A stretch of DNA of 32,264 nt, taken from assembly GCF_016862635.1 (NCBI RefSeq), contig NZ_BONI01000097.1, forward strand, positions 1-32,264, in the 5' to 3' direction. Below, in pieces: positions 9,369-32,264 of this stretch (position 1 is the first letter of the stretch; each line of letters begins with the position of its first letter). The stretch comes from Catellatospora coxensis (GTDB taxonomy: Bacteria > Actinomycetota > Actinomycetes > Mycobacteriales > Micromonosporaceae). Position numbers and translations under genes: made by a program. The notes under the pieces are model-generated. The model saw only the letters and a list, made by a program, of their open reading frames with translations, searched no databases and was not told where the DNA came from.

Positions 9369-11351
9369 ATGAACAGACGGATCCTGGCGGTCGCCGCCGG
9401 GGCGCTGATCCTGCTGCTCGGCACCGGTAGCGGCACCGCCGCCGCGGCCGGTGGCCACCCCGACGCGGGGTTCGTGACCCGCAACGGCAGTGACCTGAAA
9501 CTGAACGGTAAGCCGTTCCGGTTCGCCGGGACGAACAACTACTACCTGATCTACCAGTCGCCCACGATGGTCGACGACGTGTTCGCCCGCGCCAAGGGGG
9601 CGGGCCTGACCGTGCTGCGCAGCTGGGGCTGGCTCGACATCGGCGACCAGGACGACTCCGGTTCGGTGTCGGGCAAGAAGAACGGCGTCTACCTGCAGTA
9701 CTGGGACGGCACGCGCCCGGCGTACAACGACGGGCCGGACGGCCTGCAGCGGCTGGACTACGTGCTGTGGAAGGCCGGGCAGACCGGGATCAAACTGGTC
9801 ATCCCGTTCACCAACAACTGGTCCGACTTCGGCGGCATCGACCAGTACGTCCGCTGGGCGGGCGCGGACAACCACGACGACTTCTACACCGACCCGGTCA
9901 TCAAGGGCTGGTACAAGGACTGGATCAGCCACCTGCTGAACCGGGTGAACCCGCTGACCGGCCTGGCGTACAAGGACGACCCGGCGGTGATGATGTGGGA
10001 GCTGGGCAACGAGCCGCGCTGCAAGGGTTCGGGCCTGTACCCGCCCTCGGCGTCGTGCGGCCCGGCCACGCTGACCGCCTGGGCCGACGAGATGACCCGC
10101 CACGTCAAGAGCGTCGACGGCAAGCACCTGGTCGGTGTCGGCGACGAGGGCTTCTACTGCGACGACCCGGCCTCGGCCGACTGGACGACCAACTGCGGCG
10201 AGGGCGTCGACTCGGTCGCGCTCGGCAGGCTGCCGGCGGTGGACGTGGTCTCGTTCCACCTCTACCCGGACGGCTGGGGTAACAAGACCGCCCAGTGGGG
10301 CGCCGACTGGATCAAGCGGCACAACCGCGACGCCAAGCGGGTGGTCAAGCCGTCGATGCTGGGCGAGTTCGGCTGGCGCGACAAGGCCACCCGCAACCCG
10401 GTCTACCAGCAGTGGACCGAAGCCGCCGCGAGTGACGGGGGCGACGGCTTCCTCTACTGGATGATCAACGGCATCCAGGATGACGGCACGATGTACCCCG
10501 ACTACGACGGGTTCACCGTGGCCTGCCCCGGCACGGTCTGCCAGGCCATCACCAACGCCGGGACGATCATCAGCACCGGGCGGCGCACCTTCCCGCCGGT
10601 CGCCGACCACGACACCGTGGTGGTGCCGTACGGCACGACGGCCACGCTGAGCCCGGCGGCCAACGACATCGCGTACCAGACGCACGTGCGGGCCGACAAG
10701 ATCGACCTGGACCCGGCCGCGGACGGGCGGCAGACCGGCGCGACCGTCGCCGGCGGCACGTTCACGCTGGCCGCGTCCGGGCAGCTCACGTTCACCCCGA
10801 ACGAGGGCTTCGCCGGCAAGGCGGCGGTGGATTACACGATCCGCGACACGGCGGCCCGGCTGTCCAACGTGGCCACCGTGACGGTGACCGTGCTGCCCGA
10901 CCCGACCGCCGCCATCCCGCTGGCCTCCTGGGAGACCGGAGTCGAAGGCTGGGCGCCCGGCAACTGGCAGGCCAACGCGGGCACGCTCAGCGGCCAGACG
11001 GCCTTCGCCACCGCCGGCACGGCAGGCCTGCACGCCGACGCCGTCGACGGCGGCTGGTTCGGCGTCAGCTTCCCCGCCCCCGTCGACCTGTCCGGCAAGT
11101 CGTACGTCAAATACGACCTGCGCACCGGCGCCGCCGGCACCTCGACCAGCATCGTCCTGCAGACCGGCCCGTCCTGGACCTGGTGCCAGGGCCCCTTCAA
11201 CTGGGTCAACCAGGACACCGCCCAGACGACCGTCGAAGTCGACCTGAACACCGGCCTGTCCTGCGACCCGTCCTCCCTCACCGAAGTCCACGCCGTCTAC
11301 CTCTGGCTCAGCCCCGGCTCCTTCGACCTCGACAACCTCCGCGCCGAGTAA
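9369..11351 (+). CDS. Secreted modular beta-mannanase (GH5) with Ig/cadherin-like and C-terminal binding domains
   Basis: A 660-residue extracellular endo-beta-1,4-mannanase candidate. Residues 1-27 form a Sec-type signal peptide ending in an Ala-rich region. Residues about 33-400 are a GH5 barrel: E215 in MMWELGNEP is the acid/base and E333 in SMLGEFGW the nucleophile. Residues about 405-505 resemble a cadherin-like/Big_9 repeat (DHDTVVVPYG, LTFTPNEGFAGKAAVDYTI). Residues about 515-660 (SWETGVEGW, FDLDNLRAE) look like a carbohydrate-binding jelly roll of the kind found on mannanases. ATG 9369 has GAGGAG 7 nt upstream. The mannan specificity rests on family resemblance and on the adjoining beta-mannosidase; another beta-glucan is possible. 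A hairpin separates it from the transport operon, so it may have its own promoter. Confidence 0.87.
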   Translation: MNRRILAVAAGALILLLGTGSGTAAAAGGHPDAGFVTRNGSDLKLNGKPFRFAGTNNYYLIYQSPTMVDDVFARAKGAGLTVLRSWGWLDIGDQDDSGSVSGKKNGVYLQYWDGTRPAYNDGPDGLQRLDYVLWKAGQTGIKLVIPFTNNWSDFGGIDQYVRWAGADNHDDFYTDPVIKGWYKDWISHLLNRVNPLTGLAYKDDPAVMMWELGNEPRCKGSGLYPPSASCGPATLTAWADEMTRHVKSVDGKHLVGVGDEGFYCDDPASADWTTNCGEGVDSVALGRLPAVDVVSFHLYPDGWGNKTAQWGADWIKRHNRDAKRVVKPSMLGEFGWRDKATRNPVYQQWTEAAASDGGDGFLYWMINGIQDDGTMYPDYDGFTVACPGTVCQAITNAGTIISTGRRTFPPVADHDTVVVPYGTTATLSPAANDIAYQTHVRADKIDLDPAADGRQTGATVAGGTFTLAASGQLTFTPNEGFAGKAAVDYTIRDTAARLSNVATVTVTVLPDPTAAIPLASWETGVEGWAPGNWQANAGTLSGQTAFATAGTAGLHADAVDGGWFGVSFPAPVDLSGKSYVKYDLRTGAAGTSTSIVLQTGPSWTWCQGPFNWVNQDTAQTTVEVDLNTGLSCDPSSLTEVHAVYLWLSPGSFDLDNLRAE

Positions 11352-11362
11352 CCGATTGGCGA

Positions 11363-11412
11363 AAGGAAGGGCACCTTCACATCGCTATGCGATGTAGAAG
11401 GTGCCCTTCTTA
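11363..11412. repeat. GGGCACCTTC palindromic element A (bidirectional terminator-like)
   Basis: GAAGGGCACCTTC (11366-11378) followed by ACATCGC pairs with GCGATGT and GAAGGTGCCCTTC (11389-11395, 11397-11409), with one bulged A and a 3-nt loop. It lies between the convergent 3' ends of the mannanase gene and ribA. It shares its core with the elements at 15065, 30820 and 32095. Confidence 0.85.
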
Positions 11413-11442
11413 ACGACAGACGAGTGCTGAGCAGGGCCGACG

Positions 11443-12063
11443 TCAGGCGGCGGCGGGGAGGGCGATGGTGTGGCCGGTGTGGGCGACCTTGGCGCGCAGG
11501 TAGCGGAGGTTGTCCGGCTTGGCGTGCACGGCGGTGGGGACCACGTTCGCCACCTCGACGCCGTGGTCGCGCAGCTGGCTGGGCTTGTCGGGGTTGTTGG
11601 TCAGCAGGTCGATGCGGGCCACGCCGAGGGCGGACAGCATCTGCGCGGCGGCGGTGTAGTCCCGCTCGTCGTCGCCGAACCCGAGCGCCCGGTTCGCGGC
11701 GTACGTGTCCAGGCCCGCGTCCTGCAGGGCGTACGCGTCGAGTTTGGCGTACAGGCCGATGCCCCGGCCCTCCTGGCGCAGGTAGAGCAGGTACCCGCCG
11801 CGCTCGGTGATGCGCTGTACGGCCTCGCGCAGCTGCGGCCCGCAGTCGCAGCGGGCGGAGCCGAAGACGTCGCCGGTCATGCACTCCGAGTGGGCCCGCA
11901 CCAGCGGCGTCCCGGCGTGCTCGAAGTCGCCGAGGCCGAGCGCGAGGTGCTCCAGCCCGTCGGACAGGCCGGTGAAGGTGAAGACCTCGGCGGTGGTGGC
12001 GTACCCGTCGGGGAAGCGCAGTGGAACGGTCACCCTCGTGCGTACACCCAGCTGCTCGGTCAT
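11443..12063 (-). CDS. ribA: GTP cyclohydrolase II (stand-alone RibA)
   Basis: A 206-residue cytosolic enzyme that opens GTP to 2,5-diamino-6-ribosylamino-4-pyrimidinone phosphate, the first step of riboflavin synthesis. The zinc-binding cysteines C61, C72 and C74 are present in ECMTGDVFGSARCDCG. The GTP-contact segment LYLRQEGRGIGLYAKLDAY and the C-terminal LLTNNPDK motif are conserved. It has only the RibA domain, unlike the RibBA fusion common in actinobacteria, so it may be a second copy or serve a specialised route; no other rib gene is nearby. ATG 12063 is the natural start. It is divergent from the MFS gene, sharing a 142-nt region. Confidence 0.93.
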   Translation of the reverse strand: MTEQLGVRTRVTVPLRFPDGYATTAEVFTFTGLSDGLEHLALGLGDFEHAGTPLVRAHSECMTGDVFGSARCDCGPQLREAVQRITERGGYLLYLRQEGRGIGLYAKLDAYALQDAGLDTYAANRALGFGDDERDYTAAAQMLSALGVARIDLLTNNPDKPSQLRDHGVEVANVVPTAVHAKPDNLRYLRAKVAHTGHTIALPAAA

Positions 12064-13600: not shown

Positions 13601-15063
13601 TCGACGCACTTCCGCCCCAGGGCGTGCCCGCTGACCAGGTGCTCGCCGAGCTGCGCGGCATGCGCGCCGCCGACCTGCCAACGCACGGCGGGCGGCTGTT
13701 CGCCTACGTGTACGACCCGGCCAAGGCCGGACTCGACGAGCTGGCGATGTCCGCGTACGCCCTGTCCGCGCACGTCAACGGACTGGACCCGACGGCGTTC
13801 CCGTCGCTGCTGGCCACCGAGAACGCGCTGGTCGCCGCTGCGGCCCGGGTGCTCGGGGCGGGCCCCGGGACCACCGCGCCGGACGTGGTCGGCTCGGTCA
13901 CCAGCGGCGGCACCGAGTCGCTGATCCTGGCCGTGAAGACGGCCCGCGACGCGCACCCGGAGATCGCCGCGCCGCGGCTGGTGATCCCGTCGACCGCGCA
14001 CGCGGCGTTCGCCAAGGCCGCGCACTACCTGGGCGTGGCGCTGGACCTGGTGCCGGTCGACCCGGAGACGTTCACGCCCGACCCGGCCGCGGTCGCCGCC
14101 GCGATCACCGCGGACACGGTGCTGGTGGCGTGCTCCGCGCCGTCGTACGCGCAGGGGGTCGTCGATCCGGTCGAGCAGATCGCCGCGATCGCTCTGGAGC
14201 GGGGCGTGCGCTGCCACGTGGACGCGTGCTTCGGCGGCTGGGCGCTGCCGTTCCTGCGCCGGGTCGGGGTCGCGGTGCCCGCGTTCGACTTCAGCCTCCC
14301 GGGTGTCACGAGCATGTCGGTGGACCTGCACAAGTACGCGTACACCCCGAAGGGTGTCTCGGTGCTGCTGCACCGCGACGCCGGGCTGCGCCGCCCGCAG
14401 TACTTCGCGTTCGCCGACTGGCCCGGCTACACCATGGTCAACCCGGTGATCTCGTCGACGCGGTCCGGCGGGCCGATCGCGGCGGCGTTCGCGACGCTGC
14501 GGCACGTCGGCGACGAGGGCTACCTGGAACTCGCCCGGCAGACCCGCGACGCCGTCGCCGGGCTGGCCAAGGCCGTGGCCGAGGTGGACGGGCTGCGGCT
14601 GCTCGCCCCGGCCGACTTCACGGTCGTGTGCCTGACCTCGGACGACCCGGGGCTGGACCTGTTCGTGCTCGCCGACGAGCTGTCGGCGCGGGGCTGGCAC
14701 ACCCAGCCGCAGCTGCCGTACCAGGGCATCCCGGCCAGCATCCACCTCACCGTCACCGCGTCCGTGCTGCCGCAGGTGCCCCAGTTCGGCCCGGCGCTGG
14801 CCGAGTCGGCCGCCGCCGCCCGCGCCCACGGCCCGGTCGAGCTGCCCGCCGAGCTGCTCGCGATGGCCGCCCACCTCCCACCGGACCAGCTCACCCCCGA
14901 GATGGTCGCCGGCCTGGCCGAGACCTTCGGCCTCACCGGCGGCGAACCCGGCGCGGCCCCCCGCCTGGCCGTCGTCAACGCCGTCCTCGCCGCCGCCCCG
15001 CCCCGCCTGCGCGAACGCCTCCTGGTCGAGTTCGTCAGCCTCCTCCAACGCCCCTCCTGGTAA
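13597..15063 (+). CDS. PLP-dependent lyase/decarboxylase, sphingosine-1-phosphate lyase-like
   Basis: A 488-residue fold-type I PLP enzyme. The PLP-binding lysine is K246 in SVDLHKYAYTPKGVS, which is the motif of the sphingosine-phosphate lyase/glutamate-decarboxylase group. HVDACFGGW near residue 207 provides the aspartate that pairs with the pyridine nitrogen, and GSVTSGGTESLILAVK near 103-118 is the phosphate-loop region. The N-terminal THGGRLFAYVYDP also recalls S1P lyases. True eukaryotic-type S1P lyases have a membrane helix, which is absent here, so this is a soluble form. The substrate is unknown: phosphorylated long-chain base, amino-acid decarboxylation or another aldol cleavage are all possible. 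It is translationally coupled to the MFS gene. The stop lies just before repeat element B. Confidence 0.82.
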   Translation: MIDALPPQGVPADQVLAELRGMRAADLPTHGGRLFAYVYDPAKAGLDELAMSAYALSAHVNGLDPTAFPSLLATENALVAAAARVLGAGPGTTAPDVVGSVTSGGTESLILAVKTARDAHPEIAAPRLVIPSTAHAAFAKAAHYLGVALDLVPVDPETFTPDPAAVAAAITADTVLVACSAPSYAQGVVDPVEQIAAIALERGVRCHVDACFGGWALPFLRRVGVAVPAFDFSLPGVTSMSVDLHKYAYTPKGVSVLLHRDAGLRRPQYFAFADWPGYTMVNPVISSTRSGGPIAAAFATLRHVGDEGYLELARQTRDAVAGLAKAVAEVDGLRLLAPADFTVVCLTSDDPGLDLFVLADELSARGWHTQPQLPYQGIPASIHLTVTASVLPQVPQFGPALAESAAAARAHGPVELPAELLAMAAHLPPDQLTPEMVAGLAETFGLTGGEPGAAPRLAVVNAVLAAAPPRLRERLLVEFVSLLQRPSW

Positions 15064-15064
15064 C

Positions 15065-15250
15065 CGAAGGAAGGGCACCTTCACATCGTCATAGGTAGAG
15101 GAAGGGCACCTTCTTAACCTTCTCCGCCGCTGACCGGCGGGGACACGCCCGGGTGACCGGCTCGGCGTCGCCGTGCCAGGTCAAACCCGGTGCGAGGTTA
15201 AGAAGGTGCCCTTCCTCTACGCATACGGTGGGGAAGGTGCCCTTCCTTCG
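15065..15250. repeat. Nested palindromic element B, GGGCACCTTC family, full form
   Basis: Four arms form two nested perfect inverted repeats: 15065-15082 with 15233-15250 (18 bp) and 15098-15118 with 15197-15217 (21 bp). The inter-arm gaps are 15 nt on each side and the interior is 78 nt (15119-15196). Each half can also fold alone because adjacent arms share the nearly self-complementary core. The interior has CCGCCG/CGGCGG and CGGC/GCCG hairpins and ends in AGGTCAAACCCGGT. It separates the convergent PLP-enzyme and thioesterase genes. Confidence 0.88.
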
Positions 15251-15257
15251 TCAGGGG

Positions 15258-15647
15258 TTACTTGCGGAGGAGGCAGGTCAGGCGGGCGGTGCAGATGCGC
15301 TGGTCGTCCTCGTCGGTGATGACGATCTCGTAGGTGACGATGCTGCCGCCGCGGTGCAGCGGGGTGGCCACGCCGGTGACCAGGCCGGAGCGGGCGGCGC
15401 GGTGGTGGGTGGCGCTGATGTCGACGCCCACGGCGTACGGCCGGCCGATGGTCGAGCCGTGCAGGGTCGCGCCGATCGAGCCGAGGGTCTCGGCCAGCAC
15501 GCAGGACGCGCCGCCGTGCAGCAGGCCGAACGGCTGGGTGTTGCCCTCCACCGGCATCGTCGCGACCAGCCGTTCCGGGGTCGCCTCCAGCAGCTTGATG
15601 CCCATGCGCTCGGCCAGCGCGCCCTGCATGGTCGTGTCGTAAGTCAT
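15258..15647 (-). CDS. PaaI-like hotdog-fold thioesterase
   Basis: A 129-residue single hotdog domain of the PaaI/DUF4442 type, expected to hydrolyse acyl- or aryl-CoA thioesters in the cytosol. The family's catalytic region is seen in GNTQPFGLLHGGASCVLAETLGS, where HGG and the helix with E are diagnostic, followed by VGVDISATHHRAARSG. ATG 15647 was chosen because conserved residues begin just after it; an in-frame GTG at 15662 would add five residues and cannot be excluded. It converges on the PLP-enzyme gene with repeat element B in between. No neighbour indicates the acyl group. Confidence 0.88.
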   Translation of the reverse strand: MTYDTTMQGALAERMGIKLLEATPERLVATMPVEGNTQPFGLLHGGASCVLAETLGSIGATLHGSTIGRPYAVGVDISATHHRAARSGLVTGVATPLHRGGSIVTYEIVITDEDDQRICTARLTCLLRK

Positions 15648-15773
15648 CTCCACCCGCCGCACGTTACCCGCCGGTCACCACGGCAGACAGGGGCCGGAAG
15701 ACGGTTCCGGGGAACCCGCGGCCTCCGGGGGAGCGGAGGGGCGGATTCCCCAGAATCAGCTGGGCCGTGGGGC

Positions 15774-29748: not shown

Positions 29749-30753
29749 ATGCCCCGACCCATCACCCTGTTCACCGGCCAGTGGGCGGACCTCCCGTTCG
29801 AGGAGGTCTGCCGACTGGCGTCCGAGTGGGGCTACGACGGCCTGGAGATCGCCTGCTGGGGCGACCACTTCGAGGTCGACAAGGCGCTGTCGGACGAGAC
29901 CTACATCCCGCGTAAGCGCGCCCAGCTCGACAAGTACGGGCTGAGCGTCTACGCGATCTCCAACCACCTGGTCGGCCAGGCGGTCTGCGACAACCCGATC
30001 GACGAGCGGCACAAGGGCATCCTGCCCGCCCGCATCTGGGGTGACGGCGAGCCCGAAGGCGTACGCCAGCGCGCCGCCGCCGAGATGGCCGACACCGCTC
30101 GCGCCGCCGCCAAGCTCGGCGTGGACGTCGTCGTCGGGTTCACCGGCTCGCCGATCTGGCACTTCGTGGCCATGTTCCCGCCGGTGCCGCAGTCGATGAT
30201 CGACGCCGGGTACGAGGAGTTCGCCCGCCGCTGGCACCCGATCCTCGACGTGTACGACGAGGTCGGCGTGCGCTTCGCGCACGAGGTGCACCCCAGCGAG
30301 ATCGCGTACGACTACCACACCACCCGCCGCACCCTGGACGCGCTGGGCAACCGGCCCGCGTTCGGCCTGAACTGGGACCCGTCGCACATGGTGTGGCAGG
30401 GCTGCGACCCGGTCGGTTTCATCCTCGACTTCGCCGAGCGCATCTACCACGTGGACTGCAAGGACACGAAGGTGCGCATGGGCGACGGCCGCCGCGGCAT
30501 CCTGTCGTCCCACCTGCCCTGGGCGGACCTGCGCCGGGGCTGGGACTTCGTGTCCACCGGCCACGGCGACGTGCCGTGGGAGGACTGCTTCCGCGCCCTG
30601 AACTCGATCGGCTACACCGGCCCGATCTCGATCGAGTGGGAGGACGCGGGCATGGACCGGCTCGTGGGGGCTCCCCAGGCGTTGGAGTTCGTGCGTGGCC
30701 TGCTCTTCGACCCGCCGACCGCCTCGTTCGACGCGGCTTTCAGCTCGGACTGA
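29749..30753 (+). CDS. Sugar phosphate isomerase/epimerase (AP endonuclease 2-type TIM barrel)
   Basis: A 334-residue cytosolic TIM-barrel protein of the xylose-isomerase-like/IolE group. The N-terminus ([35 protein letters not shown]) is the standard first strand and helix. Metal ligands expected for this fold are E179 (HEVHPSE), D210 and H213 ([11 protein letters not shown]) and E296 ([10 protein letters not shown]). Together with the dehydrogenase it should convert the imported sugar or its oxidised keto form; isomerase and Gfo/Idh pairs occur in inositol and rare-sugar pathways. ATG 29749 has an upstream GAGAGCGAAC region but no strong ribosome binding site. A hairpin after the dehydrogenase makes partial uncoupling likely. 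Confidence 0.9.
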
Positions 30754-30819: not shown

Positions 30820-30868
30820 AACAAGGGCACCTTCTTCAACGCGGAGCGTTGAAGAAGGTGCCCTTGTT
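30820..30868. repeat. GGGCACCTTC palindromic element C (perfect 23-bp hairpin)
   Basis: Arms 30820-30842 and 30846-30868 are exact reverse complements with a GGA loop. The left arm begins AACAAGGGCACCTTCTTCAA. The central CAACGCGGAGCGTTG is shared, in slightly altered form, with the end of element D. It lies downstream of the isomerase stop. Confidence 0.88.
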
Positions 30869-31085
30869 CACGTCGCAGGGCTGCTGCCGCGGCTTCGGGC
30901 CGGGTTCCGGCGTACTGGGCATGATCGCCGTTTCTGGCCGGAATCTGGGGCCGGACCTCACCTTCTGACCGCAAACGGCGATCTCTTCCCGCTCGCCCGG
31001 TGGCGGCGCGTCGGTGCGCCGTGCCTAGGATCGTGCTTTGGCCTGCGCGTACGTGCGCGCGGCGGGGTGCGGGGGAGCGGCGGCA
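30869..31085. other. Non-coding stretch before crtB
   Basis: With the two hairpins just before it, this completes a 332-nt gap. It holds GATCGCCGTTT (30923-30933) and AAACGGCGATC (30973-30983) as an 11-bp inverted repeat with a 39-nt loop, and TAGGAT at 31026-31031 as a weak -10 candidate for crtB. No gene is seen. Confidence 0.5.
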
Positions 31086-32129
31086 GTGCGGCAGGTGGGT
31101 ACGGCGGCCGGGCGTGTCCCGGCAGACGCGGACCGGCCCCGCGGGGCGTCGGCGGGTTTCGTCGCGGGCAGCCGCGAGGCGATCGCCTCGATCCCAGTGG
31201 AGCTTGCGCAGGCATACCGCCGCTGCCCGATCCCCACAGAACTCGCGGAGGCGTACCGCCGCTGCCGGGACCTGCACCGCCGGCACGGTCGCAGCTACTT
31301 CCTCGCCACCCGGCTGCTGCCCGCCGGGAAACGCCCGCACGTGCACGCCCTGTACGGTTTCGCCCGGTACGCCGACGAGATCGTCGACCGCACCGACACC
31401 GGCACCCCCGAGGACCGCGCCCGGCGGCTGCGCGACTGGTCCGACCGCTTCCTCGCCGGGCTGCACGGCGAACCCGTGGACGACCCGCTGCTGCCCGCCG
31501 TGCTGCACACCGTCGGCGTCTTCGACCTGGACCTCGCCGACTTCGCCGCGTTCCTGGACAGCATGGCGATGGACCTCACCGTGCGCCGGTACGCCGACTA
31601 CTCGGCACTTCTGTCGTACATGGAGGGTTCCGCGGCGGTGATCGGCACCCTGATGCTGCCGATCCTCGGCCCCGCCGACCCGGCCGCGGCCCGCGAGCCC
31701 GCGCGGCAGCTCGGCCTGGCGTTCCAGCTCACCAACTTCCTGCGCGACGTCGCCGAGGACCTCGCCCGCGACCGCGTCTACCTGCCCCAGGACGACCTCG
31801 CCCGATTCGGCGTCACCACCGCCGACCTGCGCGCCGCCGCCGCGGCCGCCCGAGCCACGCCACAGATCAAGAGCCTCATCGCGCACGGGATCACCCGCGC
31901 CCGCACCCACTACGCCGCCGCGCTACCAGGCCTCGACCTGCTCCCCGGCACCTCCCGCACCTGCGTACGCACGGCCTACCTGGTCTACGCCGCGATCCTC
32001 GACGAGATCGAGCGCGCCGACCACGACGTCTTCGCCCGCCGCGCCGTGGTCCCCGCCCACCGCCGCGCCCGCCTCCTCACCCAAGCCCTCCTGACGAAAG
32101 GAAGGGCACCTTCACATCGCCCCGCGTAG
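31086..32129 (+). CDS. crtB: Phytoene/squalene synthase
   Basis: A 347-residue trans-isoprenyl diphosphate synthase that joins two prenyl diphosphates head to head, the first step of carotenoid or squalene synthesis. Both Mg-diphosphate motifs are intact: D97-E-I-V-D101 in YGFARYADEIVDR, and D221-V-A-E-D225 in NFLRDVAEDLARDRVYLP. GTG 31086 is chosen because GGGGGAG lies 8 nt upstream. The first ~37 residues are low-complexity and GTG 31197 remains possible. Residues 36-61 are a 13-residue tandem duplication (IPVELAQAYRRC, IPTELAEAYRRC). The last residues (TKGRAPSHRPA) are encoded by repeat element D. No other carotenoid gene is in the window. Confidence 0.88.
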   Translation: MRQVGTAAGRVPADADRPRGASAGFVAGSREAIASIPVELAQAYRRCPIPTELAEAYRRCRDLHRRHGRSYFLATRLLPAGKRPHVHALYGFARYADEIVDRTDTGTPEDRARRLRDWSDRFLAGLHGEPVDDPLLPAVLHTVGVFDLDLADFAAFLDSMAMDLTVRRYADYSALLSYMEGSAAVIGTLMLPILGPADPAAAREPARQLGLAFQLTNFLRDVAEDLARDRVYLPQDDLARFGVTTADLRAAAAAARATPQIKSLIAHGITRARTHYAAALPGLDLLPGTSRTCVRTAYLVYAAILDEIERADHDVFARRAVVPAHRRARLLTQALLTKGRAPSHRPA

Positions 32130-32264
32130 AGGAAGGGCACCTTCTTAACCCTCACAGGCCCGCGACCCGGGCCGATGCGGTCCGTGCGGCGGTGCCGAGC
32201 GGCACCGCAGGTCAAAGCCGGTCAGACGTTAAGAAGGGCACCTTCTATAACGCGGAGCGTTAAG
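32095..32264. repeat. Palindromic element D, GGGCACCTTC family, cut by the window end
   Basis: Left arms 32095-32113 and 32129-32149 match those of element B, with the same 15-nt gap. The interior (32150-32227) is again 78 nt and ends in AGGTCAAAGCCGGT, and contains GGCCCG/CGGGCC and CGGTGCC/GGCACCG hairpins. A right arm GTTAAGAAGGGCACCTTC starts at 32228. It then passes into AACGCGGAGCGTT, the loop sequence of element C, and runs out of the window. Confidence 0.85.

Follow-up and report, generated by a model that had tools for sequence, protein, structure and literature searches.

What is a 186-nt, near-perfect inverted repeat doing between two convergent genes of Catellatospora coxensis? 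The window analysed here is a 32,264-nt stretch of DNA (contig NZ_BONI01000097.1, positions 1 to 32,264), and the repeat occupies positions 15065-15250, starting one base past the stop codon of a PLP-dependent decarboxylase-like gene (13639-15063, + strand) and finishing 7 bases short of where a 4HBT thioesterase gene ends on the opposite strand (15258-15653). A preliminary description had seen in it two nested perfect palindromes framing a structured interior of fixed length. The evidence assembled below identifies it as a member of a dispersed family, which is best read as nearly symmetric 3'-end or terminator hairpins of Micromonosporaceae that lack a U-tract.

Architecture of the composite

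The arms of the inverted repeat, 15065-15120 and 15195-15250, are 56 nt each, are 86% complementary and have 74 nt between them. The sequence itself shows an outer perfect arm of the 18 bp first described (15065-15082 with 15233-15250) and an inner one that is 26 bp long (15095-15120 with 15195-15220) and not 21 bp; the earlier figures of 21 bp and 78 nt arose because the arm was ended at TTAAC, and that 78-nt interior, from TTAAC to GTTAA, occupies 15119-15196 (no strand assigned). Within the arms lie four 13-bp near-palindromes of the form GAAGG-GCA-CCTTC, here called cores, two in each orientation, starting at 15070, 15101, 15202 and 15233.

The left half (15065-15157, + strand, three times 31 nt) lies at the 3' end of the + strand gene. 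It contains core 1, GAAGGGCACCTTC, at 15070-15082 (+), core 2 at 15101-15113 (+), displaced by 31 nt with its orientation unchanged, and a further module, M, with the sequence TGACCGGCGGGG at 15131-15142 (+), which starts at +61 from core 1 and was assigned from the sequence and from family statistics. The right half (15158-15250, - strand) lies at the 3' end of the - strand gene, with core 1 at 15233-15245 and core 2 at 15202-15214, both recognised as core matches on the - strand, and module M at 15172-15183, which reads TGACCTGGCACG on the - strand and includes the AGGTCA remarked on in the preliminary description. As core 1, core 2 and M fall on one 31-nt grid, the half-element comes to ~93 nt and the composite (no strand assigned) to 186 nt, which is 2 x 93 or 6 x 31; one half matches the other at 56 of 93 positions. 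The composite is therefore two elements with like-oriented cores (type D, below), placed head to head as gene-end elements, tail to tail with respect to the genes, one for each convergent gene.

A dispersed family with a strict core spacing

The core pattern GAAGGNNNCCTTC has 9 matches in the window against 0.04 expected, and the 14-mer GGAAGGGCACCTTC has 352 exact copies across the genome of 9.35 Mb, where its reversed control has 0, so that chance is excluded and the suspected dispersed repeat is confirmed. Elsewhere, exact 14-mers number 414 in genome G007, the richest, and 382 in G002, and core pairs number 244 in G002, the richest by that count, and 165 in G009. Further measurements were made on a 2.37-Mb sample from six Catellatospora genomes, comprising 1.2 Mb of the window's own genome (G000) together with G003, G006, G001, G010 and G009 stretches picked for holding elements. 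In this sample, the spacing is exactly 31 nt in 115 of the 121 core pairs found at 24-40 nt. The basic element is ~54 nt long and consists of GTAAG/AAAGG, a core, an 18-nt spacer, a second core and TTAAC. Type S elements carry the complementary centre (TGC) in their second core, and the whole unit therefore folds as one long hairpin; in type D, the type of the composite itself, the two cores point the same way (29 exact cases genome-wide, 15 elements in the sample).

Several further copies lie in the window. A single type S element, a long hairpin, is found at 11366-11414 (+) between convergent genes at 9369-11351 (+) and 11443-12063 (-), with module M at 11428, and a variant hairpin, AACAAGGGCACCTTCTTCAACG..CGTTGAAGAAGGTGCCCTTGTT, is found at 30820-30868 (no strand assigned) after the open reading frame 29749-30753 (+). 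A second composite (32096-32264, no strand assigned; cores at 32101, 32132 and 32233) is cut by the contig end, and the sequence AGGTCAAANCCGGT occurs at only two places in the genome, here and in the first composite. The preliminary description had noted that this second copy shares its left arms and 78-nt interior length with the first, and these do agree; its right core, however, is reversed (GCA, not TGC), and the copy is cut off at 32264. The window's contig and contig C24 of the same genome end inside repeat copies, and contig C8 begins no more than 20 nt from one, as would be expected if such hairpins break short-read assembly.

When the centre may be any three bases (NNN), the paired core is present in 34 of 150 Micromonosporaceae genomes and in 10 of 44 genera, and 20 of the 150 have at least 10 core pairs (maximum 244, as above). 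Some genera have a single NNN-centre match, and both single matches of one of them (g37) resemble coding sequence. The GCA centre in core 1 was found in 11 of 11 Catellatospora genomes (genus inferred) and in 8 Micromonospora-like genomes among 300 searched, and named records of Catellatospora and Micromonospora contain a related pattern. Head-to-head copies exist in the Micromonospora spelling too, at L127 and L134 (Micromonospora sp. CP22 and M. lutea), and locus L140 has three tandem cores ~30-31 nt apart.

Core spelling is mostly uniform inside one genome and differs between species. The centre is GCA/TGC in 99 of 101 cores of our own sample, whereas the G009 core is GAAGGGNCCCTTC with few exceptions, its centre being nearly always GNC among the copies examined; the G009 element also has sharp limits, with GTAAG at -5 and AAC at +48, and its 6-bp dyad GAAGGGNCCCTTC is nearly invariant. 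Both spellings are mixed in G005.

Interiors of the composites

Head-to-head interiors of about 77-78 nt recur at four independent loci: 78 nt in the first composite, 78 nt in the composite at 32.1 kb, 77 nt on contig C73 and 77 nt on contig C7. Three of these, the D-based composites of our own genome, came from a search up to ~310 nt without restriction on length, and the fourth from a 62-92 nt window; a search for interiors of 93-123 nt returned only three of the four loci (orthologs counted once), read one core further out. The ortholog of the 32.1-kb composite in G003 has an interior of 77 nt and that of the C73 composite in G004 one of 78 nt. Other head-to-head interiors measure 37 nt (L182), 48 and 70 nt (G009) and 90 nt (C36), and at the gene pair of the first composite they measure 175 nt in G002 and 189 nt in G007. 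The interior of 77-78 nt is thus recurrent, but its length is not fixed. Nor are the interiors unrelated to one another: composites align end to end, for example at 77.6% over 210 nt (E 1.6e-36), which identifies their interiors as homologues that have diverged.

Following the preliminary description, the interior itself could be a distinct structured RNA, with the palindromes as its frame. Four independent loci with detectably homologous interiors of this length would suit such an RNA, as would the interior of the first composite, which folds far below its shuffles (z -5.3). Across seven interiors, however, the fold z-scores are -5.3, -1.7, +0.4, -2.0, -1.0, -2.8 and +0.2 with no common fold, ortholog b' of the second composite standing at +0.36, and the paired hairpins described near the start and near position 45 are not conserved. 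Interior length varies, including at the same gene pair in G002 and G007, and no Rfam family matches at its gathering score, the sole match at E <=1 being the microRNA family MIR1314, which scores 23.7 bits where its cut-off is 108 bits. The interior was accordingly rejected as a conserved structured RNA, and we consider that reading highly improbable.

The loop and 3' side of the supposed interior hairpin are instead a sequence module, M (YGASCWGCGG). In tails of the GCA-spelled species, M lies 12-13 nt past TTAAC in 35 of 82 cases, against a mean of 0.5 and a maximum of 4 in shuffled tails; in G009, scored with YGASCWS, it lies at offsets 12-13 in 0 of 30 tails. Counted from core 1, the start of M falls at +61 or +62 in 24 of 74 elements, and in 4 of 74 the module is inverted in place, in phase. 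The reverse-complement control was not clean, with 9 of 82 tails matching at offset 18, which we read as the module probably inverted in place. A stem around the M loop was tried and rejected: the best-stem mean was 6.26 against 5.73 for permuted tails (2/300) but included one 16-bp outlier, and with stems capped at 9 bp (38/1000) or required to enclose GASC (195/1000) permuted sets reached the observed value.

The strict spacing and the species-specific spellings go beyond what a plain hairpin requires, and they raise an explanation at the level of DNA. Here, a dedicated protein would bind the cores and M, set at intervals of three helical turns so that all lie on the same face of the DNA at gene ends. 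The array would serve as a roadblock, an insulator or a nucleoid site, and the hairpin potential would be a by-product of palindromic sites. A DNA-binding reader would explain both the 31-nt grid, which is kept even in the type D and G009 elements whose spacers do not covary (below), and the spellings. The recurrence of M at +61/+62, its inversion in phase, and the sharp bounds and nearly invariant dyad of the G009 element are likewise consistent with bound sites. Against it, the mixture in G005 shows that spelling is not strict, and the covariation between core 1 and core 2 reported in the next section is not expected of independent binding sites. We regard a DNA-level array as an unlikely explanation.

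Gene-end position and pairing

Where the elements lie was determined against gene calls from a crude codon-based caller made for this analysis, with 1390 intergenic regions of at least 45 nt as background. Among the 116 elements in the 2.37 Mb, 106 could be classified: 57 are between convergent, 42 between co-directional and 7 between divergent genes, whereas the background regions divide into 266, 745 and 379. This is an enrichment between convergent genes (57/106 vs 266/1390, Fisher p 4e-14) and a depletion between divergent ones (7/106 vs 379/1390, p 2e-7). A stop codon lies within 40 nt of 91 of the 99 convergent and co-directional elements, at a median of 11 nt. Only 6 of the 116 elements are inside called genes, and 4 are at gene edges.

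Pairing was examined within the core-spacer-core unit. In type S elements, spacer pairing in the bulged register reaches 82.5% (n=57), compared with a mean of 74.3% when the 3' halves are re-dealt, and 0 of 1000 shuffles reach the observed value. Spacer covariation is absent in type D (n=15; 325/1000 reach the observed value) and in G009 spacers (n=35; 323/1000). In G009, a single core base varies, and its state in one core covaries with that in the other: the two are complementary in 15 of 35 elements, a count reached in 6 of 5000 permutations. These tests include some type S elements that are mutually orthologous, and orientation was assigned by likeness to the consensus. Compensatory changes in the core stem are also apparent by eye at some orthologous sites (GGGCACC..GGTGCCC, GGGCGCC..GGCGCCC and GGGGCACC..GGTGCCCC), and at one such site the hairpin of one species reads, again by eye, as the reverse of the other's. 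Fold z-scores are -8.9 for type S (66 elements), -5.7 for G009 (35) and -3.9 for type D (15). On these comparative grounds, pairing in the core-spacer-core hairpin is under selection in the family. The selection on structure that the preliminary description placed in the interior is thus found in this hairpin, and in the interior it is not.

Like a canonical Rho-independent terminator, the element is a G+C-rich hairpin directly past the gene end. What follows the stem is no U-tract, however, but a conserved TTAAC or CCAAC, or at most CTTT, and the element is therefore not a terminator of the canonical kind. A sense-strand bias of the stem was looked for and is not clear: stability is about equal in the two directions, with the sense stem more stable in 24 of 42 cases and less stable in 17 of 42.

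We consider it probable that the dispersed repeat is the 3' end, whether terminator or message-end hairpin, of Catellatospora genes, with other spellings in other Micromonosporaceae. The element, in which 31 nt separate the two core starts, is placed a few bases past the stop codon. Once transcribed, core 1 would pair with core 2 and the spacer halves with each other, so that a long stem forms, interrupted by a one-base bulge and closed by a loop of 3-5 nt. Such a stem may stop or pause RNA polymerase and protect the message end in spite of having no U-tract. As the stem is nearly symmetric, one copy could serve two convergent genes, and where both have their own extended copy (~93 nt, with M at +61/62) a tail-to-tail nested palindrome would arise, often with an interior of 77-78 nt. 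Convergent enrichment, nearness to stop codons, covariation in type S spacers and G009 cores, and the exchange of hairpins described below support the 3'-end reading; the missing U-tract, the near equality of sense and antisense, and the type D and G009 spacers without covariation speak against it, and it leaves the strict spacing and the species spellings unexplained.

A further reading would have gene-end modules throughout the family, with species-specific spelling on a strict 31-bp (three-turn) grid and dyad-symmetric six-module arrays, on which a dedicated trans-acting protein acts through both the DNA and the nascent hairpin, ending transcription without a U-tract, while spelling and reader co-evolve. 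We offer this as speculation, to which we attach little credence.

Replacement at orthologous sites and mobility

The two convergent genes flanking the first composite are also adjacent in G010, G003, G006, G001, G004, G007 and G002. In the first five of these, an unrelated GATCGC hairpin (GTGATCGCCGTTTCGTGTCAGAA and its partner) replaces the composite, and this replacement belongs to the second gene-end hairpin family of the window (GATCGCYGTTTCGTGTCAGAA .. TTCTGACACGAAACRGCGATC). In G007 and G002, two elements are present with a GATCGC hairpin between them, and the pair in our genome therefore need not be a new insertion. The element pair may be old, in which case our genome has lost the middle hairpin and the five relatives have lost the elements, or it may have been gained. 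In G009, G008 and G005, another gene seems to separate the two, and inspection by eye shows neither hairpin family there; the thioesterase gene end of G009 and G008 (L163, L164) has, also by eye, a third kind of short hairpin, of the GGTGTGAGCGC type.

The second family has a copy of ~65 nt in the window at 30921-30988 and is also present at loci of G003, G006, G001, G010, G002 and G007. A strict pattern for it matches 9 times in the sample of 2.37 Mb, and 6 of these copies lie between convergent genes.

Across 53 orthologous comparisons, in which reciprocal ones are counted twice and G009 sites are not included, the core is kept in 44 (4 with one mismatch) and absent in 9, of which 7 carry the GATCGC hairpin. 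A gene-end hairpin is therefore often kept while its sequence family changes. That copies are exchanged with at least one further hairpin family suggests a conserved role filled by replaceable sequences. A search for orthologous regions by means of one poorly conserved gene on contig C6 found none.

Replacement at orthologous sites, hundreds of near-identical dispersed copies and the homologous interiors of composites at four non-orthologous loci could also be explained by a REP- or MITE-like repeat, mobilised in trans, whose gene-end position marks where insertion is tolerated. REP sequences carry a GTAG-like tetranucleotide, and type D copies have one before core 2. The usual retention of the element at orthologous sites argues against mobility, as does the presence of two elements at the composite's gene pair in G002 and G007, and no target-site duplication was recognised. 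The palindromes are short, intergenic and of high copy number, as in REP/RAYT systems, but the Y1 (TnpA-REP) transposase domain, PF01797, is present in only 6 of the 11 Catellatospora genomes. The other five (G002, G005, G006, G008 and G009) have no match at E 0.001, and they include G002, the richest in core pairs, and G009. G007, the richest in exact 14-mers, has one PF01797 match. The single Y1 transposase matches of our own genome (G000:C10:62235-62555) and of G003 (G003:C3:79497-79859) contain an internal stop. Terminal inverted repeats around a recurring interior, as in MITEs, are a property of the composites only, and at the site of the first composite, where a MITE would leave a clean empty site, relatives carry another hairpin. 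No match to phage was found, and matches to plasmids were limited to five weak, partial ones at E 0.01 or worse. Spread through Y1 transposase, or REP/RAYT mobilisation, is not supported, and we judge a mobile repeat to be quite unlikely; the dispersal of homologous composites nonetheless means that copies do reach new places by some route.

Relation to known systems

Enterobacterial REP/BIME sequences are dispersed palindromes at gene ends, often in inverted pairs, that avoid divergent promoters. The Catellatospora repeat shares the dispersed gene-end palindromes, the inverted pairs and the scarcity at divergent promoters, and differs in its 31-nt tandem phase, in a core spelling that changes between species and in having no RAYT/Y1 transposase that tracks it. 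Simple integron attC sites have the form RYYYAAC ... GTTRRRY, which TCTTAAC / GTTAAGA do not fit by eye, and the copies are on many contigs.

The nearest parallel, by mode of working, may be found in Neisseria and Pasteurellaceae, where DNA uptake sequences, a 9-11-nt word with ~1000 or more copies, form terminators when paired (Kingsford et al. 2007, PMC1852404). The likeness consists in a high-copy short word whose copies, paired as complements, fold into hairpins past genes. The Catellatospora repeat departs from that description in copy number (352 in 9.35 Mb) and in being rarely located in genes (6/116), so that it would not count as an uptake sequence by either measure, and also in its strict 31-nt spacing, third module, composites and absence of a U-rich tail. 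As a repeated intergenic stem-loop, it may also be likened to the families of stem-loop repeats known from bacterial genomes (PMC1590033, PMC2267715). It may likewise resemble the hairpin clusters described as terminators (PMC8355165) in placing hairpins after stop codons, where two cores or halves would form a cluster; its own hairpins differ in being one recognisable repeated sequence.

Among the results of searches in an open-access library, no paper describes the repeat, and searches on Micromonospora or Micromonosporaceae repeats yielded nothing relevant. The exact core GAAGGGCACCTTC appeared there in two papers on human genes, and GAAGGGGCCCTTC in none.

To our knowledge, it is not settled how high-GC actinobacteria end transcription with hairpins that lack a U-tract. 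Gene-end hairpins that share one sequence, are naturally replaced at orthologous sites and are spelled differently by species would make termination of this kind testable. In addition, the 31-nt phase and the spellings provide a handle for seeking a trans-acting reader or mover of the family.
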